Below the pieces are notes generated by a model, which ran no database searches, was not told the DNA's origin, and saw only the letters and a program-made list of their open reading frames with translations. 64,000 nucleotides of DNA from Ancylobacter novellus DSM 506 (GTDB lineage Bacteria; Pseudomonadota; Alphaproteobacteria; Rhizobiales; Xanthobacteraceae): positions 2,976,001 through 3,040,000 of the forward strand of contig NC_014217.1 of assembly GCF_000092925.1 (NCBI RefSeq). The letters are read 5' to 3'. Positions 22,784 through 44,020 of this stretch are shown here, piece by piece. Made by a program: the position numbers and the translations under genes. Numbering within the stretch: the first letter of the stretch is position 1; every line of letters begins with the position of its first letter.

Positions 22784-22792
22784 GGTTGGCAA

Positions 22793-25557: not shown

Positions 25558-25614
25558 CGTCATCCTCACAGGAGGCGTCACTCGGAGTTGGACAGTTCCG
25601 TTGCGTCCGTAGCC

Positions 25615-27278: not shown

Positions 27279-28093
27279 CCGCGTGCTCCTGCCGATCGCG
27301 CCGAGCGAGCGATCAGCATCGCGATGAGCATGACGATGGTGACGAGAAGCACCATGACTGTCGCTGCGGCAAGCACGGCGGGACTCAACTGGTCCCGCAC
27401 GCCCGACCACATCTGCAACGGAATGGTGCGCTGGTCATAGCCGGCCAGGAACAGTGCGATGACGGCCTCATCGAAGGATGTGACAAAGGCGAACAACGCA
27501 CCTGAGGCGATGCCGGGCGCGATCAGCGGCAAGGTCACCTTGAAAAAGGCGGACAAGGGCGGCGAACCCAGGACGGACGCGGCGCGGAGCAGACGGTCGT
27601 CAAAGGTGGTGAGCGTGCTGGCCACCGTCACCACCACATAGGGCGCAGCCAATGCGGTATGGGCGAGAATGATCCCGGCGAAAGATTGGGTAAGCCCCAG
27701 TGGCGCCAGGAAGAAATAGATGCCGGTTGCGAACAGGATAACTGGCACCACCAGCGGCGACGCGATGATAACCGCAAGCATCTTGCGCGGCCGTGTCGGC
27801 AGCCGCCGCAATCCAAGCGCCGCCATCGTGCCTAGAAGGGCTGCTAGCGGCGTGACGACCGCCGCGATGCTCAGGCTGTTTCGAAGCGCCAGCCGCCACT
27901 GCGCGCTTTCCGCAATCTCGCGGTACCAGCGCAATGACCAGCCCGACGGGTCAAGCCGGAGCATGGCCGGCGTGAAGGAAAAATACGGCTCCGGATTAAA
28001 GGACAGCGGCACGATCACAAGGAGTGGCAGCACAAGGAAAGCCGCGATCAGACCGCATAGGAGATAGATCCCGACATGAGCGAACCGGTTCAT
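27275..28093 (-). CDS. ABC transporter permease, PotC-like
   Basis: A 272-residue permease with six membrane segments and the EAA-loop text RAASVLGSPPLSAFFKVTLPLIAPGIASGALFAF that contacts the ATPase. It is of the spermidine/putrescine (PotC) class. Its start overlaps the stop of the larger permease gene. Together they form the membrane channel of the cargo 1 importer. Confidence 0.92.
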   Translation of the reverse strand: MNRFAHVGIYLLCGLIAAFLVLPLLVIVPLSFNPEPYFSFTPAMLRLDPSGWSLRWYREIAESAQWRLALRNSLSIAAVVTPLAALLGTMAALGLRRLPTRPRKMLAVIIASPLVVPVILFATGIYFFLAPLGLTQSFAGIILAHTALAAPYVVVTVASTLTTFDDRLLRAASVLGSPPLSAFFKVTLPLIAPGIASGALFAFVTSFDEAVIALFLAGYDQRTIPLQMWSGVRDQLSPAVLAAATVMVLLVTIVMLIAMLIARSARSAGARG

Positions 28094-29274
28094 GCGCGCA
28101 ATCCTCCGCGTTCGGCGAGGCGCGGCAGCGTCAAAGCGAGGAGCAGGACCGCGAGCAGGAGCAACGTCCCAAGAGCGGCCGCCAAGCCCCAGTTAAGGCT
28201 CCGTTGCATGTGAAAAGCGATCTGATTGCTGATGAGCTGGCCGGTTCGTCCTCCCACCAAGGCCGGGGTGACGTAATAGCCAAGCGACAGGATGAAGACG
28301 AGCAGACCGCCAGCCGCGACGCCGGGATAGGTCAGCGGAAGATAAACACGCGCGAAGGTCCGCAGCGGATGCGCTCCGAGGCTTGCAGAGGCGCGCACAT
28401 AGGACGTCGGTAGTCCCGCCATCACCGAATAGAGCGGAAGCACGAAGAAGGGCAGCAGCACGTGAACCATGACGATGATGGTGCCCGTCATGTTGTAGAT
28501 CAGATCCAGACGGCCGGTCTCGCTGATGAGGCCCATCGCGAGCAGCCCTTCATTGATGACGCCGCGCCGTTGCAGCAGAACGATCCAGGCGGTGGCGCGC
28601 ACCAGCAATGAGGTCCAGAACGGCAGCAGCACTAGGAAGAGCAGCAGCGCACGCAATAAGGGGCCGGCCGCTGCCATGGCATAGGCATAGGGATAGCCGA
28701 GCAGCGCACAGATGATGGTCACCAGCGCAGCGACCCAGGCAGTCCGCACGAAGAGATCGACATAAAGTCGCCGCGCCTCCTCCTGCCGGAGCATTGTTCC
28801 ATCGGCCGTCACGCTCACATCCAGGGCGTTGAGTAGATATTGCCCCGTCCAAGGCGAGGTCACGCGCGCCAGAATCCGCCAGAGGTTGGGATCGCTCCAG
28901 CCTGCGTCGATCCGCGTAAGCTCCGTGTCAGGCGCCCGCTCCAGATGTCGAGCCGTGACGTCGATCAGCGCGCGAAGTCCATTTCGCTCGCGGTTGAGAC
29001 GCTGCGCAAGCCGGCCGATCTCATTGGTCGCGTTCGCCTCCCGCAAATCCGCGGTGACCGCTTCAGCGGCCATTTGCGGAACGCCAGCCCCGTCCCATTG
29101 AGTGAGAGCCTGTCGCGTACGCGGCATGAGCTCGGCCATCTCCGGATCATAGACGGCGCGCAGCAGCATGGTCGCGATTGGCGCCAGGAAGGCGATGGCG
29201 ATGAAAGCGACAAGGGGTAGCACGAGCGCCCAGCCGGCGCGGGAGGGCGAGGCCGCGTTCATTGCGCCAGCCAT
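28090..29274 (-). CDS. ABC transporter permease, PotB-like with enlarged periplasmic loop
   Basis: A 394-residue permease. After one N-terminal membrane segment (LVLPLVAFIAIAFLAPIATMLL) it has an extra hydrophilic section of about 140 residues, then the usual core with the EAA loop ASLGAHPLRTFARVYLPLTYPGVAAGG. Typical PotB proteins are about 280-300 residues; long-loop forms exist in this transporter class. Start overlaps the binding-protein stop by 16 bases. Confidence 0.9.
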   Translation of the reverse strand: MAGAMNAASPSRAGWALVLPLVAFIAIAFLAPIATMLLRAVYDPEMAELMPRTRQALTQWDGAGVPQMAAEAVTADLREANATNEIGRLAQRLNRERNGLRALIDVTARHLERAPDTELTRIDAGWSDPNLWRILARVTSPWTGQYLLNALDVSVTADGTMLRQEEARRLYVDLFVRTAWVAALVTIICALLGYPYAYAMAAAGPLLRALLLFLVLLPFWTSLLVRATAWIVLLQRRGVINEGLLAMGLISETGRLDLIYNMTGTIIVMVHVLLPFFVLPLYSVMAGLPTSYVRASASLGAHPLRTFARVYLPLTYPGVAAGGLLVFILSLGYYVTPALVGGRTGQLISNQIAFHMQRSLNWGLAAALGTLLLLAVLLLALTLPRLAERGGLRA

Positions 29275-30332
29275 GCCGCATAGCGTTCATTGATCGCGTC
29301 GCCATGGGCCGTCCACCAGGCGGCGTCGAAGGCTAAGGCATTCTCGAAATTGGCCGGTGCCGTCGGAAGCGTGGCGGCGATCGCAGGCTCGATCAGCGCC
29401 TGGGAGGATCGGCGGACCGGACCATAAGCGATATATTTAGTCTGCTCGGCTAGTGGCACGGTGCCCGTGGCAAAACGCACGAAATCGAGCGCCCGGTCCT
29501 TGGCTCCGGTACCGGCGACAATGGCATAGTAATCCGCGTTCCAGATCTGCCGGTCCCAGACGATTTTGAGCGGCTTGGCGTCGTCCGAGATCGCCGATTG
29601 CACCCGTCCGTTATAGGCGGCGGACAGCACCACCTCGCCATCAGCGAGAAGCTGGATCATCTGCGCTCCGGTCTCCCAGAAGACGGCGTGATCCTTGACC
29701 GTGTCGAGCTTGGCAAAGGCACGGTCGAGACCTTCCGACATTGCCAGCACCCGATAGACCTCAGAGGGGGCTACGCCATCGGCCATCAACGCCCATTCAA
29801 GTATGGCGTGAGGACGCTTGGGCAGCCCACGGCGACCCGGAAACCTCTCCAGATCGAAGAAGTCCTCGATCCGGCTCGGCTTGGCACCCGGAAAGGCCGG
29901 ATCGCTGAAGGCGAGCACGTTGGACCAGATGACGGTGCCGACACCGCACTCATGCAGCGACCCGGAAACGAAGTCCTGGATGGCCCGAACACCATCGGAC
30001 CCTGCGGGCAGGCGCGCCGGATCGATCTTCTCGAACAGACCGTCGGCGCAGCCACGGTCCAGATCCTGCAACTCGACATCAATGACATCCCAACTCACCG
30101 TTCCCGAACGGACCTGGGCAGTCAGTTCGGCGAGTCCACCATTGTAATCGACCGACTTGATCGTTACGCCGGTGCTGGCGGTGAACGGGTCATACTGCGA
30201 CTTGCTCTGGCTTGCCGTGTACTGTCCGCCGAAGGAGGCGATGGTCAGTGCGTCCGCCGCGCGCGCGTCACCAGAAGCGAACAGAAGGCAAAGAACAGCT
30301 GCGGACTGCACTTTCGGGCACGCGATAACCAT
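29259..30332 (-). CDS. ABC transporter substrate-binding protein, PotD/PotF-like
   Basis: A 357-residue periplasmic binding protein. The signal peptide VIACPKVQSAAVLCLLFASGDARA is cleaved before ADALTIASFGGQYTASQSK. The text WDVIDVELQDLDRGCADGLFEKID and NADYYAIVAGTGAKDRALDFVRFA follow the polyamine/Fe-type class. ATG 30332 has GGAGG eight bases upstream; in-frame sequence above it is not coding. Ligand unknown. Confidence 0.9.
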   Translation of the reverse strand: MVIACPKVQSAAVLCLLFASGDARAADALTIASFGGQYTASQSKSQYDPFTASTGVTIKSVDYNGGLAELTAQVRSGTVSWDVIDVELQDLDRGCADGLFEKIDPARLPAGSDGVRAIQDFVSGSLHECGVGTVIWSNVLAFSDPAFPGAKPSRIEDFFDLERFPGRRGLPKRPHAILEWALMADGVAPSEVYRVLAMSEGLDRAFAKLDTVKDHAVFWETGAQMIQLLADGEVVLSAAYNGRVQSAISDDAKPLKIVWDRQIWNADYYAIVAGTGAKDRALDFVRFATGTVPLAEQTKYIAYGPVRRSSQALIEPAIAATLPTAPANFENALAFDAAWWTAHGDAINERYAAWLAQ

Positions 30333-30363
30333 GGTGAACCTCCTCGAGATGGGAAGGGTGCGC

Positions 30364-31497
30364 TCAGGCCGGGAAGGCCCGGGCGTCCTCTCGGCAGAAG
30401 CTGAGAGCGATGCGCGCGCCGCGCTCGGGGCGGGCGCTCTGGCCGCAATTGGGCAATTTCCAGATGATCTCGGCACCATCGCGCATCCGGCAGCGCACAC
30501 GAGAAACCTCACCGAGATAGGTGATGTCAGCAACGTCCACCTCGACCCGGAATTCATCCGCGACCTGTGCTGGTCGAAGACGCTCGGGCCGGACCGCAAG
30601 GCTCACGCGGTCGCCGATGCGCGCGTCGGCGATGTTGCGCGCTTCAAGGCCGGCGCCATCAGCACAACTGACCCGGCAGAATTCGCCGCCAGAGGCGATG
30701 ACCGTGCCCGCGATGCGGTTATTCTCGCCGATGAAGCCCGCGACGAAGGCGGTGCGCGGCTGCTCGTAGAGTTCCGAGGGTGCGCCGATCTGGGCAATCC
30801 GCCCGGCCTCAAACACCGCGACGCGATCCGAGAGCGACAAGGCTTCGCTCTGGTCGTGGGTGACATAGACGATGGTTGGCCGCAGTTCGCGATGGAGCCG
30901 GACGATCTCGTCCTGCATCTGCTCGCGCAGCTGCTTGTCGAGCGCGCCGAGCGGCTCGTCCATCAGTACGAGCTGGGGCTTGTAGATTAGCGCCCGGGCA
31001 ACGGCGATGCGCTGCTGCTGCCCGCCGGACAGCTGCGCCGGACGTCGGTCCCGCATTCCCTCGAGCCGGATGAGCCGCAGAGCCCAGGCGACCCGCTCGG
31101 CGATCTCGGACTTACGCCAGCCACGCGCCTTGAGCGGATAGGCGAGGTTCTCACCGACGGTCAGATGCGGAAACAGCGCATAGTGCTGGAACACCATACC
31201 GATATTCCGCTTGTACGGCGGTAACCTGGACACGTCGCGCCCGCCGATCTCGATTATCCCCCCGCTGGGCGGCTCGAAGCCGGCGAGCATCATCAAGAGA
31301 CTCGTCTTGCCGGAACCGGAGGGACCGAGAATGGTCAGGAATTCGCCCGGGTGAACGTCGAGATCAAGCGCATCCACCACCTTGTTGACGCCGTCATAAC
31401 TCTTGTCGACGCGGCGCAGCACCAGAGCTTCCGCCTCGGCGCCGTTGCCTGATGGCGCCAGCGCGCCCGTGACCTTCATCAGCATTGGCGCCCTCAA
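30364..31497 (-). CDS. ABC transporter ATP-binding protein, PotA-like
   Basis: A 377-residue ATPase of the CUT1/MOI class. Walker A GPSGSGKTS, Q-loop FQHYALFPHLTV, signature AQLSGGQQQRIA, Walker B LVLMDEPLGALDK, H-loop VTHDQSEA, and a C-terminal TOBE domain after about residue 270. It is first in the transporter operon after the GntR gene, whose stop it overlaps. Confidence 0.93.
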   Translation of the reverse strand: MRAPMLMKVTGALAPSGNGAEAEALVLRRVDKSYDGVNKVVDALDLDVHPGEFLTILGPSGSGKTSLLMMLAGFEPPSGGIIEIGGRDVSRLPPYKRNIGMVFQHYALFPHLTVGENLAYPLKARGWRKSEIAERVAWALRLIRLEGMRDRRPAQLSGGQQQRIAVARALIYKPQLVLMDEPLGALDKQLREQMQDEIVRLHRELRPTIVYVTHDQSEALSLSDRVAVFEAGRIAQIGAPSELYEQPRTAFVAGFIGENNRIAGTVIASGGEFCRVSCADGAGLEARNIADARIGDRVSLAVRPERLRPAQVADEFRVEVDVADITYLGEVSRVRCRMRDGAEIIWKLPNCGQSARPERGARIALSFCREDARAFPA

Positions 31498-32177
31498 TCG
31501 TGATCACCCAGCATGAAGCTGGTGATGCGGTTGAGGGTGCGGGCGATGTGGTTGCGCCGGATGAACCCCACCGCGCGGATGTCACCAGCGGCGAGCGAGG
31601 CCAGGATCTCGGTGATCTCGTCGCCTTGCGCCGCGACTTCGGCCGGCCAGTTGAGTTCGGGCAGGATTTCGAGATAGGCGCGGATGGTCTTGTAGTAGAG
31701 AACCTCGGACACATGCCGGTATTCGGCATTGCCGGACAGATGCAGGATCTCGTCTTGAAGCCGGTGGCTGATCTGGGCCAAGGCGCGCACATCGACCTGA
31801 CCGCCGAGCGGTTGGCATTCGGCCAGAAGCTCGCGGAGCGTCGCGGTGATGGAGTCGAGCATGGACGCCGGGTTGAGATCGCCCAGCAATTCGGCAAGCT
31901 TCATGCGCAGCGCATAGGCGTCGCGCAGGGATTTGAGTTCCACTGACGTCACCATCGAGCCAACATTCGGCGTGGTCTCGATCAGCCCTTCATTCTCCAG
32001 CGCCTGCATCACCCGCCGCATGGGCGTACGGCTGACGCCGAATTCACGCGCGAGTTCGGCTTCGCTCAACGCCGTACCGGGAGGGTAGATGAGCAGACAG
32101 ATCCGGTCGCGCAGGGCGTGGTGGATGGCGGAAAACCGCTCCCTCGGCGTGGGTCGACTCTCAACAGTTGCGGTCAT
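31494..32177 (-). CDS. GntR-family regulator (FCD), third of cargo 1
   Basis: A 227-residue regulator, similar to the one at 21.2 kb: LRDRICLLIYPPGTALSEAELAREFGVSRTPMRRVMQALENEGLIETTPNVGSMVTS is the winged helix and the rest is an FCD domain. The ATG at 32177 has GGAG six bases upstream, which favours it over the ATG at 32195. It leads the operon of importer and amidase genes and faces a divergent methyltransferase-like gene. Confidence 0.92.
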   Translation of the reverse strand: MTATVESRPTPRERFSAIHHALRDRICLLIYPPGTALSEAELAREFGVSRTPMRRVMQALENEGLIETTPNVGSMVTSVELKSLRDAYALRMKLAELLGDLNPASMLDSITATLRELLAECQPLGGQVDVRALAQISHRLQDEILHLSGNAEYRHVSEVLYYKTIRAYLEILPELNWPAEVAAQGDEITEILASLAAGDIRAVGFIRRNHIARTLNRITSFMLGDHD

Positions 32178-32201
32178 GGCGGTCTCCTGATGCAAAATTG
32201 G

Positions 32202-32313
32202 TACATCTTAAAATATGTATCGTCAACAACGGAGTCCCGTATTAGCTAACCAGTATACCGGTTTATGACATGTGGGTTAAGACGATGAAATATCTAGTAC
32301 ATTCGCGAATGTA
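32202..32313. promoter_or_regulatory. Divergent control region with TACAT...ATGTA palindromes
   Basis: TACAT-N8-ATGTA lies at 32202-32219, next to the GntR gene, and the perfect 16-bp palindrome TACATTCGCGAATGTA lies at 32298-32313, next to the plus-strand gene. The shared half-site suggests one dimeric regulator, GntR or LysR, on both promoters. Confidence 0.62.
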
Positions 32314-32378
32314 GTTTGCTATCGACGGCACCCGCCGCGAAAATTCTCGCTGTTACACGAGAAAATGCGAAAGCGGAT

Positions 32379-33212
32379 ATGTCGATGAGCGGATCTGAAG
32401 CGGGAATGCGCGCGGCCAAGCACGATTTCACGCCGACCTATGACCAGCCCTGGCCGCACGCCTATTATTCGGCCCATCTCGCGCTCGACTACATGATCTG
32501 CGATCGTGCCAAGCCGGTATTCGAGGACATCATCGCGCGCATGCGCCGCCAGCGACCGCATCGACCTCTCAAGATCGTGGATGTGGGCGCGTCCTACGGG
32601 CTCAACGCGGCCCTGCTGCGCTCCCGGCTCACCTTGGACGAACTCTACGCGGCGTACACCCTCAAGGATGGGCCGCTGGCGTCCCAACGCCTTGAGGATC
32701 ACCAGGCCTTCTTCACGCGCCAGCAGCGGCGAGAAGACCTAGACGTCGTGGGTCTGGACCCCAGCCGTCACGCGTTGCGCTACGCTCGCAACGTCGGCCT
32801 GATCAGAGCAGCAGCGACAGCCAATCTGGAGACCGAGGAACTCTCCCCTACGGACCGTGAAGTTCTTCGTGATGCGGATCTGATTATCAGCACCGGCTGC
32901 GTCGGCTACGCCACCGCGCGGACATTCCAACGGGTCTATGCGGCGACCGCCGCCTCCCGCCCTTGGGTGGCGAGTTTTGCCATGCATCCGTTCGGCTACG
33001 GGGATATCGCTGCGGTGCTGGCAGGGTTCGGCCTTGCCACCATAGAGAAGCCAGACCTCCGGCAGCGCCAGCGGCGCTTCTCCACCGAGCAAGAACGGTC
33101 CTCGATCCTCTCCCTGATGGCGGAGCGTGGAATGGATGATCGGCTGGAACGTGCCACCGGCTATATCTACGCCGCCTTTCATCTGTCGACGCCTCGCGAG
33201 GACGATGCATGA
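32379..33212 (+). CDS. SAM-methyltransferase-fold protein, unknown
   Basis: A protein of about 277 residues. PLKIVDVGASYGLNAALLRSRL resembles motif I of class I SAM-dependent methyltransferases (DxGxxxG), and DVVGLDPSRHALRYARNVGLIRAAATANLE fits motif II; RDADLIISTGCVGYATARTFQRV follows. The start is uncertain: ATG 32379 or 32385; an upstream TTG at 32316 overlaps the operator area. It overlaps the LysR gene by four bases. A regulatory or modifying role in cargo 1 is possible. Confidence 0.65.
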   Translation: MSMSGSEAGMRAAKHDFTPTYDQPWPHAYYSAHLALDYMICDRAKPVFEDIIARMRRQRPHRPLKIVDVGASYGLNAALLRSRLTLDELYAAYTLKDGPLASQRLEDHQAFFTRQQRREDLDVVGLDPSRHALRYARNVGLIRAAATANLETEELSPTDREVLRDADLIISTGCVGYATARTFQRVYAATAASRPWVASFAMHPFGYGDIAAVLAGFGLATIEKPDLRQRQRRFSTEQERSSILSLMAERGMDDRLERATGYIYAAFHLSTPREDDA

Positions 33213-34163: not shown

Positions 34164-34439
34164 TCAGCCCGATCGGCTCGAGCCTGCCGCGCGCCTTCGT
34201 TTAGGCTGCGCCACCGCACCATCCGCCATGCCGTCCGGCTCGACGAGCGCCACATGGCTTACGCGGAGCGCCAGCGCGATCTCATACAGCGTGATGATCG
34301 TCGGATTCTTGAGTCCGCGCTCCATGTCGGACAAATATTGCTGGCTGAAGCCCGAACGCATAGCAAGCTCTTCTTGCGTCAGCTTTTGAGCCTGACGCAG
34401 GCGCGCGAGATTGCGGCCGACCAGCTTGCGCATGTCCAT
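34164..34439 (-). CDS. XRE-family regulator, QseC-like, copy 2
   Basis: A 91-residue protein with a full Cro/CI HTH (RLRQAQKLTQEELAMRSGFSQQYLSDMERGLKNPTIITLYEIALAL) and a basic tail PKRRRAAG. It is divergent from the QseM-like gene at 34733 with 293 bases between, the arrangement of qseC/qseM in ICEMlSymR7A, where QseC acts as a bistable switch on both promoters. It is about 77 percent identical to copy 1 over the shared 66 residues (counted by eye). Confidence 0.85.
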   Translation of the reverse strand: MDMRKLVGRNLARLRQAQKLTQEELAMRSGFSQQYLSDMERGLKNPTIITLYEIALALRVSHVALVEPDGMADGAVAQPKRRRAAGSSRSG

Positions 34440-34469
34440 GGCGCAAGCGGTCGCGGATTTCGACGATCA

Positions 34470-34490
34470 AGTTTATCAACTATAATATGT
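34470..34490 (-). promoter_or_regulatory. Promoter/operator of XRE copy 2
   Basis: Identical to 21170-21190 over 21 bases, with AGTT-TATC-AACT at its left end and an AT-rich -10-like box toward the XRE start. It lies in the gap between the divergent XRE and QseM-like genes and is the best candidate for the QseC-type binding site. Confidence 0.6.
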
Positions 34491-34732
34491 AGCAGCTAAT
34501 CTACTTTGCGCGCTGGCGTATGGAAACGAACGCCAGCCCCGCCGCCATTCTCGCGAATGAACTTGATGCCGGCGGACTTCGGCGCACGGTACAACGAGTC
34601 GGACGTCGTCGCTTATATGCTGCCTCTGCCGCGATGCCCGCGCCTCATCACGTGATGCCGCTCCACGATCTGCCACTTCACTGCATTGTCGTCCTAGTTT
34701 CGCGCTCATCGCGATGAAACACGACGCTTGCC

Positions 34733-34993
34733 ATGACCCGCGCCTTCCTCGATGCACCGCCCGATGCGCCGACCGTTACCGACTATGACCGCGGTCATGC
34801 CGTGCTGTATCTGCGGCTGCTTGATGCCGAAGCAGCGGGCGCCGACTGGAAGGAAGTTGTAGCGCTACTGTTCGGTCTCGATCCGCTCACGGCGCCGGAG
34901 CGTGCCCGGCGTGTCCACGCGGCCCATCTGGCCCGGGCCCGCTGGATGTCGACGCGAGGGTATCAGGAACTCCTGCGCCGACCCGACAAGTGA
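34733..34993 (+). CDS. QseM-like antiactivator (DUF2285)
   Basis: An 86-residue single-domain protein: TDYDRGHAVLYLRLLDAEAAGADWKEVVALLFGLDPLTAPERARRVHAAHLARARWMSTRGYQELLRR is the DUF2285 fold. In ICEMlSymR7A the small DUF2285 protein QseM binds the activators TraR and FseA and keeps the ICE silent. Here it sits between a QseC-like gene and an FseA-like gene, which supports the same role. No traR/luxI gene is visible in the window. Confidence 0.82.
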   Translation: MTRAFLDAPPDAPTVTDYDRGHAVLYLRLLDAEAAGADWKEVVALLFGLDPLTAPERARRVHAAHLARARWMSTRGYQELLRRPDK

Positions 34994-35100
34994 TCGAGTG
35001 ATGCCTACTGGGCATCAGGTCATGTCTTTGACGTTTCTTCCCGAAGCTTCCTCCAGACGAGATCGTCGGGCGTATCGCAGTCCGCTCGAGAGGGATCCGG

Positions 35101-35881
35101 ATGGTCCTGGAATCGGCTTGGCAGTCATCAGAGGCCTATGCCTTCGTAGATGCTCTCTCGCCTGCACAGCTCGCCTGGGAATGGCTTCGGCGCAACGAGG
35201 CGTATCGGCAAGACTTTGCCATACTCCGTGCGGCCGCCGGAGCCGAGGAGGAGACCCTCGCGGCGCTCATGCGAGCCCGCTGGGGTCTGCGATTTCCCGA
35301 TCGACCCCACACGTGATGCGCGAGACGCTGCCGTTATCTGGGACCTGGAAACCGACCCCGGCCTGATCGCGCTTGTCGCGCCGTGCGACACTGCCTGTGG
35401 CCCCCCGACCGCTGGTGATACGCCTCAGGGCATGGACGATCACCAGCATGCATCAGGTTGTGTGATCGTCGGCGCGGGCCGCGACGCGATCGCCGTCCTA
35501 CTGCCGAAAGGCCATCGCCTCGATCCATCCCTGTGTGCTCTGGTGCTGATGGACGCACACCTAACCGATCGGATCGAAGCTCTGATGCGGCTGTCAGCCC
35601 ACATGCGGACTGCGTCAATGCCGCCGGATCGGAGGATCACGCTCCAGCAGCGCCGGCGCCTGCGCCACATGCTTCAGGCGGGGGACGCTCGGCGCGCGGG
35701 CGCGACCTATCGTGAGATCGCGACCAGCCTGTTCGGTGCCGTTCGTGTCGCGGCGGCACCTTGGAAGACGTCCTCCCTGCGCGACACGGTCATCGCGCTG
35801 GTGGAGGATGCGCGCCTGATGGTCGAAGGCGATTACCGCAAGCTGTTGTATCGGCGCCGCCGCTGCACCTCGCCCCGCTAG
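35101..35881 (+). CDS. FseA-like excision activator, two frames joined by a +1 frameshift
   Basis: Frame one (35101-35316) encodes ESAWQSSEAYAFVDALSPAQLAWEWLRRNEAYRQDF...ARWGLRFP, a DUF6499-type start, and stops soon after. In the +1 frame the sequence continues IDPTRDARDAAVIWDLETDPGLI and ends in a DUF2285 domain (ITLQQRRRLRHMLQAGDARRAGATYREIATSLFGAVRVAAAPWKTSSLRDTVIALVEDARLMVEGDYRKLLYRR). The switch point TTT-CCC-G at 35293-35299 allows a CCC-to-CCG slip and gives about 259 residues. FseA of ICEMlSymR7A is made by just such a +1 programmed frameshift and activates excision. Decay of a single-frame gene is the alternative. Confidence 0.78.
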
Positions 35882-35999
35882 GGTGGGGAAGTTAGCTCTC
35901 AATCTTCCCCATCCCTCCCGACATTCTCCCTCCGCCACCGTGGTCACCGTCCGCCGCCGCACTCCGGCGGCACCCGCCACACCCACGGAGGCCCGCTCC

Positions 36000-36281
36000 A
36001 TGCGACCCGATCTCGCCACCCTCCCGCCGCGCTATCTGCGCACCAAGGAAGCCGCCGCGCTTCTCAGCCTGTCGGCCCGCACGCTGGAGAAGCACCGCAC
36101 CTATGGCACCGGTCCCGCCTATCGCAAGCTGGGCGGGCGCGTCGTCTATTCCGTCGACGACCTGCAGGCCTGGACCGAGCGCGGCGCAGTCACCTCGACC
36201 GCCGATCCGCGCGGCACCGTCCTGCCGGCCAAGCGCCATGCGTTTGCCGCCGCTTCGTTCGCCGGCCGCGCCACGCGCTGA
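36000..36281 (+). CDS. RdfS/AlpA-like HTH protein, candidate excisionase
   Basis: A 93-residue MerR/AlpA-type (HTH_17) protein: PPRYLRTKEAAALLSLSARTLEKHRTYGTGPAYRKLGGRVVYSVDDLQAWTERG. GGAGG lies ten bases before the ATG. In ICEMlSymR7A the FseA target rdfS codes for a small HTH excisionase that directs the integrase to excise; here the gene follows the FseA-like gene by 118 bases and heads the replication/transfer operon. The inverted repeat GGGGAAG (35885-35891)/CTTCCCC (35904-35910) in the gap may be regulatory. Confidence 0.78.
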   Translation: MRPDLATLPPRYLRTKEAAALLSLSARTLEKHRTYGTGPAYRKLGGRVVYSVDDLQAWTERGAVTSTADPRGTVLPAKRHAFAAASFAGRATR

Positions 36282-36292
36282 ACGCACCACCC

Positions 36293-37402
36293 ATGGCGGC
36301 GCGGCATCACAGCCTCTCGGAGCGCGGACAGCTCGATCTGTTCCGCGCCCTGCCGGGGGACTTCGCGCCACGAGATGCGCAGGATCTCATGGCCTATCCC
36401 TTCTTCTCCCTTTCCAAGACGCCGCGCGTCGCGCCCATCGATTTCAGAACCGGCAGCATCGCCATCCGGGTCGAGGCCGTGCCCAATCACGGCATGGCCA
36501 CCATCTGGGACGCCGACATTCTCATCTGGGCCGCCAGCCAGATCGTCGAAGCCCGTGACGCGGGGATTCGCACCTCGCGCCTGATGGCCGCGACGCCCTA
36601 TGAGATCCTCACCTTTGTCGGGCGCGGCACCTCCCTGCGCGACTATCAGCGCCTCAAGGCCGCGCTCGACCGTCTCCAATCGACGACCGTCTCGACCACG
36701 ATCCGCCAGCCGGCGGAGGGGCGCCGGCACCGCTTCTCCTGGATCAATGAATGGCAGGAGCGCGCGGACCGCAACGGACGGCCCGATGGCGTCGACCTCA
36801 TCCTGCCGGACTGGTTCTACCGCGCCGTGCTCGACGACGCGCTCGTGCTCACCATCGACCGGGCCTATTTCGGGCTGACCGGCGGGCTGGAGCGCTGGCT
36901 CTACCGGCTGGTGCGCAAGCATGGCGGCCGTCAGCAGGATGGGTGGCGGTTCGATTTCCGGCACCTGCACCAGAAGTCGGGCAGCCTGTCGCCATTCAAG
37001 CGCTTCGCCTTCGAGCTCAGGGATGTGATCCGGCGCCAGCCGCTTCCCGGCTACAGGCTGTTCGTGGAGGTCGAGGTCAGCGGCCGGCTGCTGCTGGCCT
37101 TCGCTCCTGTCGCGCCCTGTGGGCAGCCTGTGCATAGCCTCGTGCTATCGGGAACCCCGACTATCGTGCCATCGGGAACCGGCGCCTCGTGCCATCAGGA
37201 ACCCAAACAGACCTTAACTCACTGTTCTGCATCAGAAAATCGCGCCCTTAACTTAGAGTCTAACCCAGAATCTAACATTGAGAGGCGCGCGAGCGCTTTT
37301 GAGGGCTCCCCGGATCAGCACCGGCAGGAGGCAAAGTGGCCTGGGAAAACCCCGCCTGACAGCGTCTTGCAGACGCCCCCTCGCTCGAGGGGGCACCGAT
37401 GA
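36293..37402 (+). CDS. repA: Replication initiator protein A (RPA family)
   Basis: A 369-residue initiator. The body (DLMAYPFFSLSKTPRVAPIDFRTGSIAIRVEAVPNHGMATIWDADILIWAASQI ... GLERWLYRLVRKHGG ... SGSLSPFKRFAFELRDVI) is the RPA family found on alphaproteobacterial plasmids and ICEs, where it gives limited autonomous replication of the excised circle. The last 90 residues are low-complexity because this DNA also holds three direct repeats. The TGA overlaps the parA ATG. Confidence 0.9.
   Translation: MAARHHSLSERGQLDLFRALPGDFAPRDAQDLMAYPFFSLSKTPRVAPIDFRTGSIAIRVEAVPNHGMATIWDADILIWAASQIVEARDAGIRTSRLMAATPYEILTFVGRGTSLRDYQRLKAALDRLQSTTVSTTIRQPAEGRRHRFSWINEWQERADRNGRPDGVDLILPDWFYRAVLDDALVLTIDRAYFGLTGGLERWLYRLVRKHGGRQQDGWRFDFRHLHQKSGSLSPFKRFAFELRDVIRRQPLPGYRLFVEVEVSGRLLLAFAPVAPCGQPVHSLVLSGTPTIVPSGTGASCHQEPKQTLTHCSASENRALNLESNPESNIERRASAFEGSPDQHRQEAKWPGKTPPDSVLQTPPRSRGHR
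37140..37203 (+). repeat. Three iteron-like direct repeats inside the 3-prime end of repA
   Basis: TCGTGCTATCGGGAACC (37140-37156), TCGTGCCATCGGGAACC (37164-37180) and TCGTGCCATCAGGAACC (37187-37203) differ at two positions in 17 and are spaced 24 and 23 bp, about two helical turns. Direct repeats at this spacing beside an initiator gene are typical iterons of an origin of vegetative replication. Confidence 0.72.
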
Positions 37403-38052
37403 TCGTCGCGCTCCTCAACCAGAAGGGCGGAGTCGGCAAGACGACGCTGGCGCTGCATCTCGCGGGGCAATGGGCCCGGCAGGGGCAGCGGATCCCGCTG
37501 ATCGACGCCGATCCGCAGGGCTCCAGCCTCGACTGGTCGCAGCAGCGCAGCCGCGAGGGCGTGCCGCGGCTGTTCGGTGTCGTCGGGCTCGCCCGCGACA
37601 CGCTGCACCGGGAGGGCTCCGAGCTCGCCCGTGACGCCGATCATATCGTTATCGATGGACCGCCCCGGGTCGCCGGCCTGATGCGCTCGGCGCTGCTCGC
37701 CGCCGATCTGGTGCTGATCCCGGTTCAGCCCTCGCCCTTCGATGGATGGGCCTCGGCCGAGATGTTGGCGTTGATCCGGGAGGCGCGGATCTACCGCCCG
37801 GCGCTGTTGGTCCGGTTCGTCCTGAACCGCTGCGGCGCGCGCACGGTAATCGCCCGCGAGACTGCGCGGACACTGGCCGATCACGATCCTCCGGTGCTCG
37901 CCAGCACCGTCGGTCAGCGCACCGCCTTTGCGGCGGCCGCGCAATCCGGGCGTCTCGTCTTCGAGCGCGACGATGCCGGGCCAGCCACGCGCGAAATTGC
38001 TGCGCTCACCGCCGAGATCAATGGTCTCGACCTCGGGAGGCCCGCGCGATGA
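37399..38052 (+). CDS. parA: ParA-family partition ATPase
   Basis: A 217-residue ParA-type ATPase with the deviant Walker A motif NQKGGVGKTT at 7-16, LIDADPQGSS for the A-prime motif and VIDGPP for Walker B. Short ParA forms of this size (type Ib) segregate plasmids with a small ribbon-helix-helix partner, which the overlapping next gene can supply. Partition with the RPA origin implies that the circular form is maintained for a time. Confidence 0.93.
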   Translation: MIVALLNQKGGVGKTTLALHLAGQWARQGQRIPLIDADPQGSSLDWSQQRSREGVPRLFGVVGLARDTLHREGSELARDADHIVIDGPPRVAGLMRSALLAADLVLIPVQPSPFDGWASAEMLALIREARIYRPALLVRFVLNRCGARTVIARETARTLADHDPPVLASTVGQRTAFAAAAQSGRLVFERDDAGPATREIAALTAEINGLDLGRPAR

Positions 38053-38300
38053 GCGAACGCCCGATCCGCCGCGACTTCGCCTCTCGGCCTGCCGATCCCG
38101 AGCACTGGATCAAGGCAACCGATGTCTCGACCGAACGCCGCCCCGGAGCCGCGTTCACCGCGCGCCTCACCATCGATGTGACGCCAGACCTGCGCGGGCG
38201 GATCAAGGTCGCCGCCTTCCGGCGTGGCGTCACCGTCGCCGAAATGCTGCGCGACCTCCTCGCGCGTGAATTCCCTCCCACATCAGGAGATCATCCATGA
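38049..38300 (+). CDS. Small ribbon-helix-helix partition partner
   Basis: An 83-residue protein, MSERPIRRDFASRPADPEHW..., that overlaps parA by four bases. The C-terminal half FTARLTIDVTPDLRGRIKVAAFRRGVTVAEMLRDLLAREF reads as a ribbon-helix-helix DNA-binding unit, as in ParG-like centromere-binding proteins. Coupling to parA supports that role; a longer in-frame reading into parA is not coding. Confidence 0.78.
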   Translation: MSERPIRRDFASRPADPEHWIKATDVSTERRPGAAFTARLTIDVTPDLRGRIKVAAFRRGVTVAEMLRDLLAREFPPTSGDHP

Positions 38301-38818
38301 GCGCGGCGTTTGCACCCCGTGCGGCAAGCACGGCATCCGCGTCCAGTCCCCCGTCCGATGCGATGACCCACGTCGAGCTGACCCATATCGAGAAGCGCAT
38401 CGAGAACTGGATCCGCTTCGGCCATCACGCACATGAGCAGCTTCTGGATCGCCGTCGGCGCATCCTGTCTTTCCCTCCCGGCTGCATCTTCGCCTTTGTC
38501 CGATGGGCGTCGAACGACTTCGGCACCGTTGCTTCCCGCCTCGATATCGTGCGCTGCGGGGCGCTGGGCGAAGGCTTCCAGACGCTGCCCTTCGTGCGGC
38601 CCGGCGGCGAGATCCTGTTGCGGGTGAATGGCTGGCCGAAGGTCGAGAAAATTCTGCAGCACATCGACGCCATCGAGGCGATCGGCATTGATGCGGCAAC
38701 CGTCGCCCCCGACCACTGGGGTCATGTCGCCCACCGCATGAGCGTCGGCTTCGAGCCTCGCGCCTATACTCTGGAGCGCCATCAGGCGTGGTTGAAGCGG
38801 CAGGAGTGCGGACTATGA
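38297..38818 (+). CDS. DUF2840 domain-containing protein
   Basis: A 173-residue protein with the DUF2840 pattern THVELTHIEKRIENWIRFGHHAHEQLLDRRRRILSFPPGCIFAFVRWASNDFGTVASRLDIVRC ... GEILLRVNGWPKVEKILQHIDAIEAIGID. The family occurs only in this ICE/plasmid context, between parA and traF, and has no known function. Four-base overlaps tie it to both neighbours. Confidence 0.93.
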   Translation: MSAAFAPRAASTASASSPPSDAMTHVELTHIEKRIENWIRFGHHAHEQLLDRRRRILSFPPGCIFAFVRWASNDFGTVASRLDIVRCGALGEGFQTLPFVRPGGEILLRVNGWPKVEKILQHIDAIEAIGIDAATVAPDHWGHVAHRMSVGFEPRAYTLERHQAWLKRQECGL

Positions 38819-39360
38819 ACCGCGCCGCTTATGTGCTGATGACGACGGTCGCCAGCGTCGGTGTGGCACTCGCCGCCACCATGCCGACGCCGCTCAAGCT
38901 CATCTGGAACGTCTCGGCGAGCGTTCCTGTCGGGCTCTACTCGGTCGAGCCGGCTGATGCTCTCGAGATCACCGATCTGGTCGCGGTGATGCCGCCACCC
39001 CCGCTCGCCGCGTTCCTCATCGCGCGTGGCTATCTCGGCGGAGGCACGCCGCTGTTGAAGCGTGTGATGGGGCTCCCGGGGCAAGTGGTCTGCCGCCTCG
39101 GTGAGGCGATTACGGTCGATGGCGTGCCGCTGGGCGAAGCGCTGCCGCGCGACCGCATGGGGCGTGATCTGCCGGTCTGGCAGGGCTGCCGGCGTGTCGA
39201 GCCCGGCCATCTGTTCCTGATGAACCGGGACGTCGGCGACAGTCTCGACGGACGTTATTTCGGCCCAATCTCGGCTACGGCCATCATCGGCCGGACGATG
39301 CCAGTGCTCACGGATGAAGCCGGCAACCGTGACTTCATCTGGCGCGCGGCGGTGCGCTGA
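38815..39360 (+). CDS. traF: TraF-type S26 signal peptidase
   Basis: A 181-residue membrane-anchored S26 peptidase. One N-terminal membrane segment, the catalytic Ser in NVSASVPVGLY (about residue 36), the Lys in LLKRVMGLPGQVV and the closing DSLDGRYFGPI are present. TraF peptidases of this class process or cyclise the conjugative pilin TrbC. The start overlaps the DUF2840 stop. Confidence 0.93.
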   Translation: MNRAAYVLMTTVASVGVALAATMPTPLKLIWNVSASVPVGLYSVEPADALEITDLVAVMPPPPLAAFLIARGYLGGGTPLLKRVMGLPGQVVCRLGEAITVDGVPLGEALPRDRMGRDLPVWQGCRRVEPGHLFLMNRDVGDSLDGRYFGPISATAIIGRTMPVLTDEAGNRDFIWRAAVR

Positions 39361-39361
39361 C

Positions 39362-40024
39362 ATGCATCGCCCTGTGCTCTTCCTCGCAGGCGGATTGTTA
39401 ATCGGCGGAGCATCGCCTGGCTGTGCCACCGCGCAGACCGTGTCGCCGACCGTGGCGTATTCCGTCACATCCTACGCCGCCTTTATCGACGAGGCTGCGC
39501 AGCGCTTCCAGCTTCCGGCCAGCTGGATCCGTGCCGTCCTGCAGGCCGAGAGCGGCGGCGATCCGCGCGCCGTCTCACCGGCCGGCGCCATGGGACTGAT
39601 GCAGATCACGCCCGCGACCTGGGACCAGCTTCGCGCCCATCACGCTCTCGGTGCCGATCCGTTCGACCCGCGCGATAGCATCCTCGCGGGCGCCGCCCAT
39701 CTGCGGCAGCTCCATGACCGCTATAGCAGCATCCACGCCGTGCTCGCGGCCTATAATGCCGGGCCTGCGCGCTATGAGGCGTCGCTTACCGGAAAACCGC
39801 TGCCGCCGGAGACGCGCACTTACATCGCGGCCTTGGCGCCGATCATCAACAAAGAGTCTGCAGCCGGCGCGACCGAATTGGTGCGGCCAATGGCGCAAAG
39901 CTGGCGCGAGGCTCCGCTATTCGCTGCGCCGACCGAGCGTAGCAATCCAGTCGATGCCGGGTTCCTCGCGCCGCGTTCGGGCGCGCTTTTCGTTGCTCCT
40001 TTGCCATCGCGGAGGGCGCCATGA
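39362..40024 (+). CDS. Lytic transglycosylase (VirB1/SLT type)
   Basis: A 220-residue exported enzyme with a signal peptide ending near residue 25 (GCATAQ). The SLT domain shows the catalytic Glu63 in VLQAESGGDPRAVSPAGAMGLMQITPATW and AYNAGPARYE. It opens peptidoglycan locally for assembly of the mating apparatus. It starts two bases after the traF stop. Confidence 0.93.
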   Translation: MHRPVLFLAGGLLIGGASPGCATAQTVSPTVAYSVTSYAAFIDEAAQRFQLPASWIRAVLQAESGGDPRAVSPAGAMGLMQITPATWDQLRAHHALGADPFDPRDSILAGAAHLRQLHDRYSSIHAVLAAYNAGPARYEASLTGKPLPPETRTYIAALAPIINKESAAGATELVRPMAQSWREAPLFAAPTERSNPVDAGFLAPRSGALFVAPLPSRRAP

Positions 40025-40267
40025 GCAGGCGGGCCCGCTTTCGCGTCCTGTCGGGCTCTGGCGCTCCATGGAGGGTGAGGAGGCGTGGGACAGGGATCAC
40101 GACCGCACGAGGGCAGGATAAAAGGGCGCACATTGCGCGACGGTCGGGGTGTTGCTTCACCACGTGTTTTCCGCGCCCTCGGCACCTTGCGGCGCCGAAC
40201 CACAAGGTTTGCGCGTGCCGCAAATGGCGCCGCATCAATGATTTCCCGCACATTGCGAGGTTTCGCC
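40025..40267. other. Intergenic region before the relaxase gene, candidate oriT
   Basis: These 243 bases lie between transglycosylase and relaxase genes. They contain the perfect inverted repeat TTTGCG-CGTGC-CGCAAA (40208-40224), a shorter hairpin GGTG/CACC (40148-40161), and the direct repeat CGCACATTGCG at 40127-40137 and 40247-40257. Inverted repeats next to a relaxase gene are the usual mark of a transfer origin. The nic site cannot be named. Confidence 0.45.
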
Positions 40268-42007
40268 ATGAGCGATGACCGCGAGTTTCGCGTCCGTCCC
40301 GGCCGCATCCGCTCGACCCGCGCCCAGCACTCCCGCCCCTTCGTCGCTCAGGCGCTCGCCGCGGCCCGGAAGGCCGGCGGCGGGGTCTCTCGCTCCGGCA
40401 AGATCACCTCCGACAACCGCTCGCGCTTCGGCAGCGGACAGGTCGCCAGTCTTCAGGCCAGCCGCCGGATCACGCCGCGCTCACGCGGCGCCGTGGTAAA
40501 GGCGCGCGTCGTCCGACAGACTGCCCGCACCGGCTCGCTCGGACAGCACCTCACCTATCTCCGCCGCGAGGGCGTGACCCGCGACGGCGAGAAGGCGCGG
40601 CTGTTCGGTCCCGAGAGTGACAGCGTGGATGTCGACGCCTTCGCTGAGCGCTGCCGCGAGGACCGTCACCATTTTCGCTTCATCATCTCGCCTGACGACG
40701 CGTTGGAGATGGAGGACCTGCGGGCCTTCACCCGAGACCTCACACGGCAGATGGAAAAGGACCTTGGCACCGGGCTCGATTGGGTCGCCGTCGATCACTG
40801 GAACACCGAGCATCCCCATGTACATCTGATCGTGCGCGGCCGCCGCGACGATGACCAGGACCTCGTAATCTCCCGCGACTACATCAAGGAAGGCATGCGC
40901 GACCGCGCCCGCGACCTGATCACCCAGGAACTCGGTCCACGCACAGAGCTCGATATCCGCCGAAGTTTGGAACGCCAGATCGAGGCCGAGCGCTGGACCG
41001 AGCTCGACCGCCAGCTTGCCCGCGAGATCCGCGAGAGCGGCACCATCGACATGGCGCCGGTTCCCCGCCGACAGCCGGACGAACACTATGCGCTGAAGAT
41101 GGGGCGCCTCCGCAAACTCGAGGCGCTCGGCCTCGCCAAGGAGATCGGCAACGCGCAATGGGTGATGGAGCCGGACGCGGAAGCCCCCCTGCGCGCGCTC
41201 GGTGAACGCGGCGACATCATCAAGCGCATGCACCGCGCCCTGACCGAACGCGGGATCGAGCGCGGCACGGCCAGCTACGTCCTCGCCGCCGAGAGTCTCG
41301 ACGTGCCAGTGATCGGCCGGCTGGTCGCGCGCGGTCTCGATGACGAACTCCACGGCTCTGCCTATGCCATCGTCGATGGCGTGGATGGCCGCTCCCATCA
41401 CATCCGGTTGCCCGATCTCGATGCCGCTGGTGACGGCGCGCCGGGCTCCATCGTCGAACTCCGGACCTTCGACGATGCGCACGGCAAACGGCGCGTCGCG
41501 CTCGCCGTGCGATCCGATCTCGACCTAGCCCATCAGGTCACGGCCACCGGTGCCACCTGGCTCGACCGGCAGGCCATGGCGCATGACCCCGTCGCTCTCT
41601 CCGACGGCGGCTTCGGAGCGGAGGTGAGCCAGGCACTCGACCGACGCGCCGAGCATCTTATCCACGAGGGCTTGGCCGAGCGGCAGGGACGGCGCGTCGT
41701 CTTCGCCCGCAACCTCATAGAAACGCTCCGCCGCCGGGAACTGGAGGCCGTGGGAGAGACGCTCGCCGCCGAGAGCGGCCTGCCGTTCAAAAAGGCCGGC
41801 ACCGGCGAGTATGTCGCCGGCACGTATCGCCAGCGCCTTGTGCTCGCGTCCGGTCGCTTCGCCATGCTCGATGACGGCCTCGGCTTCCAGCTCGTGCCCT
41901 GGTCGCCCTCGTTGGAACGCCAGCTCGGCAAGCATGTCTCCGGCGTCGCCCGTGACGATGGGGGCGTTGACTGGAGCTTCGGTCGCAAGCGCGGCCTTAG
42001 CCTCTGA
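40268..42007 (+). CDS. Relaxase (VirD2-like with DUF3363)
   Basis: A 579-residue conjugative relaxase. The three-His metal motif is clear in VDHWNTEHPHVHLIVRGRRDD (about residues 176-196), preceded by HHFRFIISPDDA. A DUF3363 domain fills the C-terminal half. The catalytic Tyr is probably in LGQHLTYLRREGV (about residue 97). Proteins of this type (RlxS in ICEMlSymR7A) nick oriT and pilot the strand. Start ATG 40268 is chosen after the oriT-like leader. Confidence 0.93.
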   Translation: MSDDREFRVRPGRIRSTRAQHSRPFVAQALAAARKAGGGVSRSGKITSDNRSRFGSGQVASLQASRRITPRSRGAVVKARVVRQTARTGSLGQHLTYLRREGVTRDGEKARLFGPESDSVDVDAFAERCREDRHHFRFIISPDDALEMEDLRAFTRDLTRQMEKDLGTGLDWVAVDHWNTEHPHVHLIVRGRRDDDQDLVISRDYIKEGMRDRARDLITQELGPRTELDIRRSLERQIEAERWTELDRQLAREIRESGTIDMAPVPRRQPDEHYALKMGRLRKLEALGLAKEIGNAQWVMEPDAEAPLRALGERGDIIKRMHRALTERGIERGTASYVLAAESLDVPVIGRLVARGLDDELHGSAYAIVDGVDGRSHHIRLPDLDAAGDGAPGSIVELRTFDDAHGKRRVALAVRSDLDLAHQVTATGATWLDRQAMAHDPVALSDGGFGAEVSQALDRRAEHLIHEGLAERQGRRVVFARNLIETLRRRELEAVGETLAAESGLPFKKAGTGEYVAGTYRQRLVLASGRFAMLDDGLGFQLVPWSPSLERQLGKHVSGVARDDGGVDWSFGRKRGLSL

Positions 42008-42028
42008 CCCGCGAGAGGGATTACCACC

Positions 42029-44020
42029 ATGTCGGCGACGAAAATCCTCTGGGGGCAGATCCTCACCGTCCTGCTGATCGTGCTGGCGGCCATCTGGGGC
42101 GCCACACAATATGTGGCCTGGAGCCTCGGCTTTCAGGCGCAGTTGGGCGCGCCGTGGTTCGCGCTTCTCGGGCTGCCCATCTACTATCCGCCGGCCTTCT
42201 TCTGGTGGTGGTACTTTTTCGACGCTTATGCGCCGGAGGTGTTTTTCCGGGGCGCGCTGATCGCGGCCTCCGGCGGCTTCCTCTCCATCGCGGTCGCCAT
42301 CGCCCTGTCGATCTGGCGGGCCCGCGAGGCCTCCAGGGTCGAGACCTATGGTTCAGCGCGCTGGGCCGAAAGGGAGGAAGTCCGGGCAGCCGGGCTCCTC
42401 GGCACGGATGGCGTCGTGCTCGGCCGGTATGAACGCGATTATCTACGCCATGACCGGCCCGAGCACGTGCTGTGCTTCGCGCCGACCCGGTCCGGCAAGG
42501 GCGTCGGCCTGGTCGTGCCCTCGCTGCTGACCTGGCCGGGATCGGCCATCGTCCATGACATCAAGGGCGAGAACTGGCAGCTCACCGCCGGCTTCCGCGC
42601 CCGGCATGGCCGCATTCTTCTGTTCGATCCGACCAACGCCAAGTCCGCCGCCTATAATCCCCTGCTGGAGGTGCGCCGCGGCGAATGGGAAGTCCGCGAC
42701 GTCCAGAACATCGCCGACATTCTTGTCGACCCCGAAGGCTCGCTGGAAAAGCGGAACCATTGGGAGAAGACCAGCCACGCGCTGCTCGTCGGTGCCATTC
42801 TTCACGTCCTCTATGCCGAGACGGACAAGACGCTCGCCGGCGTCGCCGCCTTCCTGTCCGATCCAAAACGCCCGATCGAGACCACGCTGGACGTCATGAT
42901 GAAGACCGCCCACCTCGGCGAGACAGGTCCACACCCCGTCATCGCCAGCGCCGCCCGCGAACTGCTGAACAAATCCGACAATGAGCGATCCGGTGTGCTC
43001 TCCACCGCCATGTCCTTCCTCGGCCTCTATCGTGATCCGGTCATTGCCGAGGTGACGCGGCGCTGCGACTGGCGCATCGCCGATATTGTCGGCGGCAAGG
43101 CACCCGCGACTCTCTACCTCGTGGTGCCGCCCTCCGACATCAATCGCACCAAGCCACTGATCCGCCTGCTCCTCAATCAGATCGGCCGACGCCTCACCGA
43201 AGACCTGCAGGCGAAGGGTGGGCGCCATCGGCTGCTGCTCATGCTGGACGAGTTTCCCGCGCTGGGCCGGCTCGACTTCTTCGAGAGCGCGCTCGCCTTC
43301 ATGGCCGGCTATGGCCTGAAAGCCTTCCTCATCGCTCAGTCTCTGAACCAGATCGAGAAGGCCTACGGCCCGAACAACTCGATCCTCGACAACTGCCATG
43401 TCCGCGTGAGCTTCGCCACGAACGATGAGCGTACCGCCAAGCGCGTGTCGGATGCGCTCGGCACCGCCACGGAGATGAAGGCGATGAAAAACTATGCCGG
43501 CCATCGGCTCTCGCCGTGGCTGGGTCATCTCATGGTGTCGCGCTCGGAAACCGCCCGCCCTTTACTCACCCCCGGCGAGGTCATGCAGCTGCCGCCCGCG
43601 GACGAGATCGTCATGGTCGCCGGCACGCCTCCTATCCGGGCGAAGAAGGCCCGCTACTACGATGATGCGCGCTTCCGGGACCGGCTCCTGCCGCCGCCAA
43701 TACCCTCTCGTGGCCCGACCGTCCAACAGGATGACTGGACTGCGCTGCCGTTGCCCAGACCGCAGGAGGGCACCGGCGGGGGCACTATGGACGAAGGTCG
43801 AGACGATGACCCGACCGGGTCAGAGCACCGGCATCAGCCCGAGCTCAGCCGCGTCGAGTCGGTCGAGCAATTGCAGCCGATTGAGAACGAGTTCGAGTTC
43901 GACACAGATCGCGACGACGAGATGGATAATGTCGCCACCCGGAACCGGCGCATGACCGGACTGATGCAAGGCGTCGCCCGACAGGTCAGCCTCACTCCCA
44001 ACGACGGCATGGAGCTGTGA
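42029..44020 (+). CDS. traG: TraG/VirD4 type IV coupling protein
   Basis: A 663-residue ATPase. Three N-terminal membrane segments (about 8-35, 46-64, 72-96), Walker A APTRSGKG at 151-158, VVPSLLTWPGSAIVHDIKGENW, and Walker B LLLMLDEFPALGRLDFFE are intact. It links the relaxosome to the mating channel. The last 80 residues are acidic and variable. It is followed after five bases by the CopG-like gene. Confidence 0.96.
   Translation: MSATKILWGQILTVLLIVLAAIWGATQYVAWSLGFQAQLGAPWFALLGLPIYYPPAFFWWWYFFDAYAPEVFFRGALIAASGGFLSIAVAIALSIWRAREASRVETYGSARWAEREEVRAAGLLGTDGVVLGRYERDYLRHDRPEHVLCFAPTRSGKGVGLVVPSLLTWPGSAIVHDIKGENWQLTAGFRARHGRILLFDPTNAKSAAYNPLLEVRRGEWEVRDVQNIADILVDPEGSLEKRNHWEKTSHALLVGAILHVLYAETDKTLAGVAAFLSDPKRPIETTLDVMMKTAHLGETGPHPVIASAARELLNKSDNERSGVLSTAMSFLGLYRDPVIAEVTRRCDWRIADIVGGKAPATLYLVVPPSDINRTKPLIRLLLNQIGRRLTEDLQAKGGRHRLLLMLDEFPALGRLDFFESALAFMAGYGLKAFLIAQSLNQIEKAYGPNNSILDNCHVRVSFATNDERTAKRVSDALGTATEMKAMKNYAGHRLSPWLGHLMVSRSETARPLLTPGEVMQLPPADEIVMVAGTPPIRAKKARYYDDARFRDRLLPPPIPSRGPTVQQDDWTALPLPRPQEGTGGGTMDEGRDDDPTGSEHRHQPELSRVESVEQLQPIENEFEFDTDRDDEMDNVATRNRRMTGLMQGVARQVSLTPNDGMEL

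Follow-up and report, generated by a model that had tools for sequence, protein, structure and literature searches.

The stretch at 35101-35881 is a two-frame fseA gene lying beside qseM-like and rdfS-like genes. On the sequence comparisons below, its activator would be made only by ribosomes stepping forward by one nucleotide at CGA-UUU-C, a reading to which we give a probability of about 0.88. The window, that is the whole stretch of 64,000 nucleotides analysed (G000:C1:2976001-3040000), belongs to a genome of 4.77 Mb in a single contig.

Table 1. Coordinates of the features in and around the two-frame fseA gene (positions in the window).
Feature	Position	Strand	Match or remark
HTH_3 regulator, QseC/RihR-like by position	34164..34439	-	PF01381 E 2.6e-16
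QseM-like DUF2285-only protein, candidate antiactivator	34733..34993	+	PF10074 E 9.5e-8; PDB 7uqt
fseA first half, frame 0, DUF6499 / PF20109	35101..35316	+	PF20109 E 4e-21; 71 aa
Frameshift cassette TGG GGT CTG CGA TTT C	35281..35296	+	Codon bias across related junctions
SD-like GGGGT	35282..35286	+	Part of cassette
CGA	35290..35292	+	Part of cassette
Slip codon TTT	35293..35295	+	Part of cassette
C	35296	+	Part of cassette
fseA second half after +1 step (frame +1), DUF2285 / PF10074	35297..35881	+	PF10074 E 3.6e-31, scored on ORF 35150-35881
FseA-box-like inverted repeat, hexamers TGGGGA and TCCCCA 16 bp apart	35884..35911	+	Upstream of rdfS-like gene
RdfS-like recombination directionality factor	36000..36281	+	HTH_17 E 5.1e-10 on longer ORF; PDB 8dgl; start at ATG 36000 assumed
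RlxS-type relaxase of module	40085..42007	+	NF041267 relax_RlxS E 1.4e-175 (585.7 bits, under the profile cut-off of 850); DUF3363 E 5.3e-92
TraG coupling protein of module	42029..44020	+	NF010450 1231.5 bits, cut-off 674

The first-pass annotation had described two overlapping frames holding a DUF6499-like start and a DUF2285 end of one FseA-type protein. Both domains were found in the two frames (Table 1), together with the +1 relation and an AWEWLRRN sequence of the AWEFLRRN type, all of them features of the FseA family. The frame-0 stop is the TGA at 35314-35316, 18 nucleotides past the slip codon, and the second half stops at the TAG at 35879-35881. The meeting point TTTCCCG was located at 35293-35299 as described. 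A +1 step at 35293-35296 restores the reading WGLRFP-IDPTRDARDAAVIWD and gives a read-through protein of 259 amino acids. The last 105 residues of the joined product carry a net charge of +13, counted over residues and not over a surface. The AlphaFold2 model of the 259-residue product had a mean pLDDT of 91.1 and a pTM of 0.86, with the weakest part around residues 100-120. The only PDB entry to match it at E<=0.001 was RovC (6xz5; Foldseek E 1.7e-5, probability 1.00, 16% identity, TM 0.51/0.61), and the joined product as modelled has a coherent RovC-like fold. RovC differs in being single-frame and an activator of type VI secretion. By sequence, no solved relative of the second half was found at E<=0.001. 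FseA is likened to RovC in published work too (PMC10359603).

Relatives were collected by PF20109 searches in overlapping samples (relatives, 37 of 121 genomes; phylum, 43 of 398; class, 25 of 385; family, 107 of 296). A scan of named genomes gave 529 related stretches, from which 80 loci were kept; 77 were used and three, from Brucella, were dropped. Among named genomes, the first half came closest to four Ancylobacter loci with 88, 80, 80 and 79% identity, followed by one at 56%, in a comparison that may omit the window's own record. Single-frame close homologues had been named in the first-pass annotation as the sign of a decayed gene; in the nearest relatives the gene is likewise split over two frames, and 107/107 loci of the nearer set carry the second half in +1 (the window's copy and some duplicates counted). 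The full set of 313 loci holds some, not all, of the search matches. Of its 299 first-half matches, 252 continue in frame +1, 36 run through as one ORF, 8 have no second half, 2 have it in the same frame with an interruption and 1 has it in frame +2; a recognisable W-G motif was missing from 13. When identical junctions were removed, 245 distinct junctions were left, comprising 211 in +1, 28 single-frame, 4 without a second half, 1 in frame +2 and 1 in the same frame. Two relatives appear damaged: the second half of L020 is broken by a stop, and that of L115 lies in frame +2. The tree used had 239 rows and 132 columns, was built with the site columns left out and had 96 of its 233 inner branches unresolved; on it, 7 changes were needed between the one-frame and the two-frame state. 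The proposal that the layout is conserved agrees with 211/245 distinct junctions, more than chance would give, and this conservation has already been published: about 61% of 4709 FseA homologues require a +1 shift (PMC10359603).

The codons of the 211 two-frame junctions were compared with the background of the same genes and with 25 single-frame relatives. The phenylalanine codon was TTT in 196/196 two-frame junctions (background 26%), the arginine codon was CGA in 135/157 (9.3%), the glycine codon was GGG in 155/204 (11.5%) and the leucine codon was TTG or TTA in 129/198 (11.5%). The single-frame relatives contained GGG in 5/25, CGA in 0/12 and TTC as the phenylalanine codon in 4/4. TTG (7/23) and TTA (3/23) were mildly enriched there too (P about 0.03 each), so the leucine preference does not belong to the two-frame layout alone. 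The anti-SD pairing of the nine WGL bases had a median of -9.6 versus -5.5 kcal/mol (P 5e-10). The P values should be read as indicative because related loci are not independent of one another. The SD-like element of the window, GGGGT with GGT as the glycine codon, pairs at -7.5 kcal/mol and is weaker than most. Six relatives (L103, L011, L050, L081, L076, L123) carried AGG as the WGL glycine codon, giving the SD-like stretch GGAGGT.

Judged from these comparisons, the cassette in two-frame junctions is under nucleotide-level, codon-by-codon selection, and the frameshift looks programmed, not decayed. The +1 programmed frameshift proposed in the first-pass annotation is therefore upheld by 211/245 junctions in +1 and by site preferences for TTT, CGA and GGG that are absent from single-frame relatives. 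In five near relatives the pN/pS values after the site pointed to constraint in frame +1 (0.30 and 0.22) and to none in frame 0 (2.69 and 1.37). The 45 bases before the site had a pN/pS of 4.21 in the same five (2 synonymous and 25 other changes), with no frame-0 constraint, perhaps due to an indel there.

A CCC-to-CCG slip had been proposed at the junction. The codon after TTT in the 196 TTT-type junctions was CCN in 117, CGN in 73 and another codon in 6, and a proline slip is therefore impossible at the 79/196 without CCN. Of the 211 junctions, 204 have C and 7 have T directly after the fifth codon (in two of the seven, T came from a second or displaced TTT), and UUU was followed by C or U throughout the TTT-type junctions. 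What stays constant is UUU-Y, which in the window would mean a step from UUU to UUC at 35293-35296, and the proline slip was rejected. Work of Ramsay in 2015 on R7A reportedly assigned the shift to a slip of tRNA-Phe. According to a review, UUU_Y is especially prone to +1 shifting in bacteria (PMC5009743).

The proposed mechanism is as follows. Ribosomes that stay in frame 0 would end at 35316 and leave only the DUF6499 peptide. Some ribosomes would pause at the SD-like stretch while tRNA-Phe(GAA) moves from UUU to UUC, and these shifted ribosomes would continue through DUF2285 to give the 259-residue FseA. By binding to the repeat at 35884-35911, FseA would then activate the rdfS-like gene and the genes behind it, and the QseM-like protein would act against FseA. 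The occurrence and frequency of the shift, the DNA binding, the rdfS activation and the antiactivation are drawn by analogy from the published R7A system.

Relatives with TGT in place of TTT do not fit tRNA-Phe slippage and count against this best explanation, as do the weak SD-like element of the window, the lack of frame-0 constraint before the site, an in-frame ATG at 35150 in the second half and the only suggestive standing of the repeat. TGT was found in 14 distinct +1 junctions, of which 13 form one lineage (L200-L204, L234, L235, L243, L251, L252, L254-L256) and one, L123, stands apart; two changes on the tree account for them. The 13 distinct loci come from 10 genomes of 5 genera, with three genomes in the window's own genus. 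CGA precedes UGU in all 13, and L123 has CGG. Before the targeted search, this type made up 6/138 distinct +1 junctions. A search for the UGU pattern in 296 genomes gave 29 places in 26 genomes versus 1 for a reversed control; 13 of the 29 were FseA junctions and 16 were chance matches without the domain. In 397 genomes of the order, the pattern was found at 5 places, and the first-half domain was present only at the already known G052 locus. In the search for UGU-type genes on plasmids, 73 records matched the second half of L203, all at less than 60% identity.

The second half is intact in the UGU-type loci. The UGU lineage contained one variable column in the 15-base motif. Over the 45 bases on each side of the motif, its pN/pS rose from 0.26 to 3.0 in frame 0 and fell from 1.99 to 0.23 in frame +1. 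At 105-150 the frames were indistinguishable (0.76 and 0.79). No second-frame start codon was common to the 13, the commonest being a TTG at -53 in 6 of them, and L201 and L252 had no second-frame start codon from the upstream stop to +250. The FseA-box-like repeat 3' of the gene was exact in 12/13, had one base changed in L251 and was absent in L123. Because of the motif, the frame switch, the lack of a shared start codon and the repeat, the UGU lineage looks functional and seemingly must shift at or next to UGU. At UGU, tRNA-Cys(GCA) could keep only a wobble pair after a +1 step.

These loci bear on an alternative that we consider unlikely, in which the same programmed shift takes place one codon earlier, while CGA occupies the P site and the A site holds UUU or UGU. 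The inosine 34 of tRNA-Arg would form an I:A pair, a U would be skipped, and UUY or GUY would be read without P-site re-pairing, as proposed for yeast Ty3; the SD-like element at RF2 spacing would drive the step. In TTT-type genes the product would be identical to that of UUU slippage. The 13 CGA-UGU junctions and L123 speak for such a shift, as do the nearly invariant motif, the sharp frame switch and the lack of a shared second-frame start among the 13, but the 13 are a single lineage. In the consensus TGGGGG TTR CGA TTT, the SD-like element ends 3 nucleotides before CGA and 6 before UUU, and the slippery codon of RF2 (prfB) lies at that 3-nucleotide distance from its own SD-like element (PMC12421855). 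The spacing thus matches if CGA is the P-site codon. RF2 and the FseA genes are alike in the SD-like stretch upstream of the +1 site (GGGGG in the FseA genes, GGAGGT in the six relatives above). RF2 has an A-site stop codon, whereas the next frame-0 codons in the window are CCC GAT, ahead of the stop described above. The window's host contained tRNA-Arg ACG, CCG, CCT and TCT and no TCG among 45 tRNA matches, and CGA is therefore read there by ACG through inosine; this inventory is that of the window's host genome. However, 76/211 two-frame junctions were without CGA, CGA showed no link to SD strength (Fisher P 0.30 and 0.87), UUU-Y was kept in nearly all junctions, as slippage requires, and the R7A shift is, as said, reportedly due to tRNA-Phe.

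Ty3 of Saccharomyces cerevisiae (GCG_AGU_U) is the model for a shift without re-pairing, and only a few codons, CGA included, can replace its GCG (PMC5009743). GUU (Val) is read after the skipped base, which parallels GUY in UGU-type fseA as a likeness of mechanism only. Ty3 differs in being a eukaryotic retrotransposon with a 3' stimulator. We suggest tentatively, and with some doubt, that the FseA cassette may be more than a tRNA-Phe slip, namely a device driven by the SD-like element, spaced as in RF2, with CGA as the P-site codon and tolerant of lost re-pairing. If true, bacteria would have a natural +1 frameshift that does without re-pairing and can be compared with that of Ty3. The words UGU, TGT and CGA are absent from PMC10359603, as is UGU from the searched part of PMC5009743. 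Literature searches listed no paper on UGU at the FseA slip site; as they did not extend to the text of the primary 2015 study, no priority is claimed.

It is far less probable that the halves are separate proteins with their own starts that act together, a view put forward for Azorhizobium rihF1b and rihF1a (PMC9601964). An in-frame ATG is present at 35150 in the second frame of the window, and DUF6499 and DUF2285 domains are able to bind as separate chains in two-hybrid tests (PMC10359603). However, 39/211 two-frame loci had no ATG, GTG or TTG in the second frame between its upstream stop and +100, and frame +1 was constrained from the first codons past the site. An independent start of the second half is disfavoured by these 39 loci and by L201 and L252.

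The rihF1 gene (rihF1b-rihF1a) of Azorhizobium caulinodans ORS571 is a homologous two-part gene needed for ICE transfer. In genome G042, the locus L317 was surrounded by an IS481-type transposase, a PF10074 half, a PF20109 half, a QseM-like ORF, an XRE-like ORF and an integrase, the QseM-like and XRE-like ORFs being assigned by eye. Since this order is the same as the published order rihF1a, rihF1b, rihF2, rihR, intC (PMC9601964), L317 (and L019) is likely the ORS571 rihF1 locus. The frameshift is said to be absent from Azorhizobium rihF1 (PMC9601964), but L317 has the site TGG GGA CTT CGA TTT CGC and continues in +1, and L019 likewise has CGA TTT C followed by a second half in +1, which also speaks against separate halves. 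The sequence of the two loci, if rightly assigned, disagrees with the published absence. Neither rihF1 half alone restored transfer (PMC9601964), which fits a joined product.

Decay of a single-frame gene through a one-base change is barely credible and was rejected. Single-frame relatives (28/245) and a few damaged ones (L020, L115) do exist, but the nearest relatives share the two-frame layout, the codons are biased, the tree needs only 7 changes and purifying selection persists on the second half.

The two-frame gene belongs to a regulation and conjugation module at 34164-44020. Its order is the HTH_3 regulator on the minus strand, the QseM-like gene, the two-frame gene, the RdfS-like gene, a PF10134 replication-initiator-like gene, a ParA-like gene, a TraF-like peptidase, a lytic transglycosylase, the RlxS-type relaxase and TraG. 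Both neighbours named in the first-pass annotation were recovered: the QseM-like product matched PDB 7uqt ('Quorum sensing master protein', QseM) by sequence at E 1.2e-17 and the RdfS-like product matched PDB 8dgl (RdfS) at E 7e-9. QseM itself is described as negatively charged, whereas the QseM-like protein has a net charge of +1. An RdfS-like gene was found within 900 nucleotides downstream in 201/235 loci with enough sequence. The architecture of the repeat at 35884-35911 matches the published FseA box (PMC10359603). Among 195 spacers, repeats with 6/6 hexamer identity had a gap of 16 in 42, a gap of 18 in 57 and a gap of 8 in 30; such repeats are thus common at other gaps as well, the spacing control is weak, and the repeat as a candidate FseA box is only suggestive. 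The window had no Rfam match at gathering scores and no tRNA gene as an attachment site.

Metabolic and ABC-transport gene blocks are found on either side of the module; cargo-like ABC-transporter, amidase/amidohydrolase and regulator genes occupy 19000-33200 and 45800-55100. A plasmid-type replication initiator (PF10134) and the ParA-like gene lie at 36293-38052, directly 3' of the rdfS-like gene, and possibly serve the upkeep of an excised circle. The genome contained 12 Phage_integrase matches, none in the window, the nearest being about 50 kb before and about 51 kb after it. No match to TrbI (PF03743) or CagE_TrbE_VirB (PF03135; TrbE/VirB4), the two families covered by the mating-pair-formation search, or to Autoind_bind (TraR-type) was found in the genome. 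The element is therefore probably not a self-transmissible ICE and probably not under TraR, and its gene content suggests a mobilizable or degenerate element instead of a complete ICE. A relaxase, a coupling protein and a TraF-like gene are present although the TrbI, TrbE/VirB4 and TraR-type families are unmatched genome-wide. Of the earlier suggestion that the frameshift controls ICE excision, the frameshift part stands and the ICE part is weakened by these missing families.

The closest known system is FseA (Msi172-Msi171) of ICEMlSymR7A in Mesorhizobium japonicum R7A, with DUF6499 and DUF2285 in two frames joined by +1, the AWEFLRRN-type motif, QseM-like and RdfS-like genes and a similar length (259 residues here, published construct numbering to 266). 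R7A is TraR-controlled, a trait not required of every FseA homologue, whereas the present genome had none of the above families, and the window's fseA directly precedes rdfS; the two systems were compared by description. The kind of device is already published and said to be widespread; the window's copy is a typical representative, and the element that carries it is somewhat unusual.

The window's gene adds one more case of frameshift-controlled excision of a mobile element, in an element that seems to be without TraR quorum sensing and mating-pair genes. The comparative set shows that the RNA cassette is selected codon by codon, places the slip at UUU-Y instead of CCC and disagrees with the statement on Azorhizobium. 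What might surprise a specialist is the UGU lineage; if it holds, it would bear on whether a bacterial programmed +1 shift needs re-pairing of the P-site tRNA.
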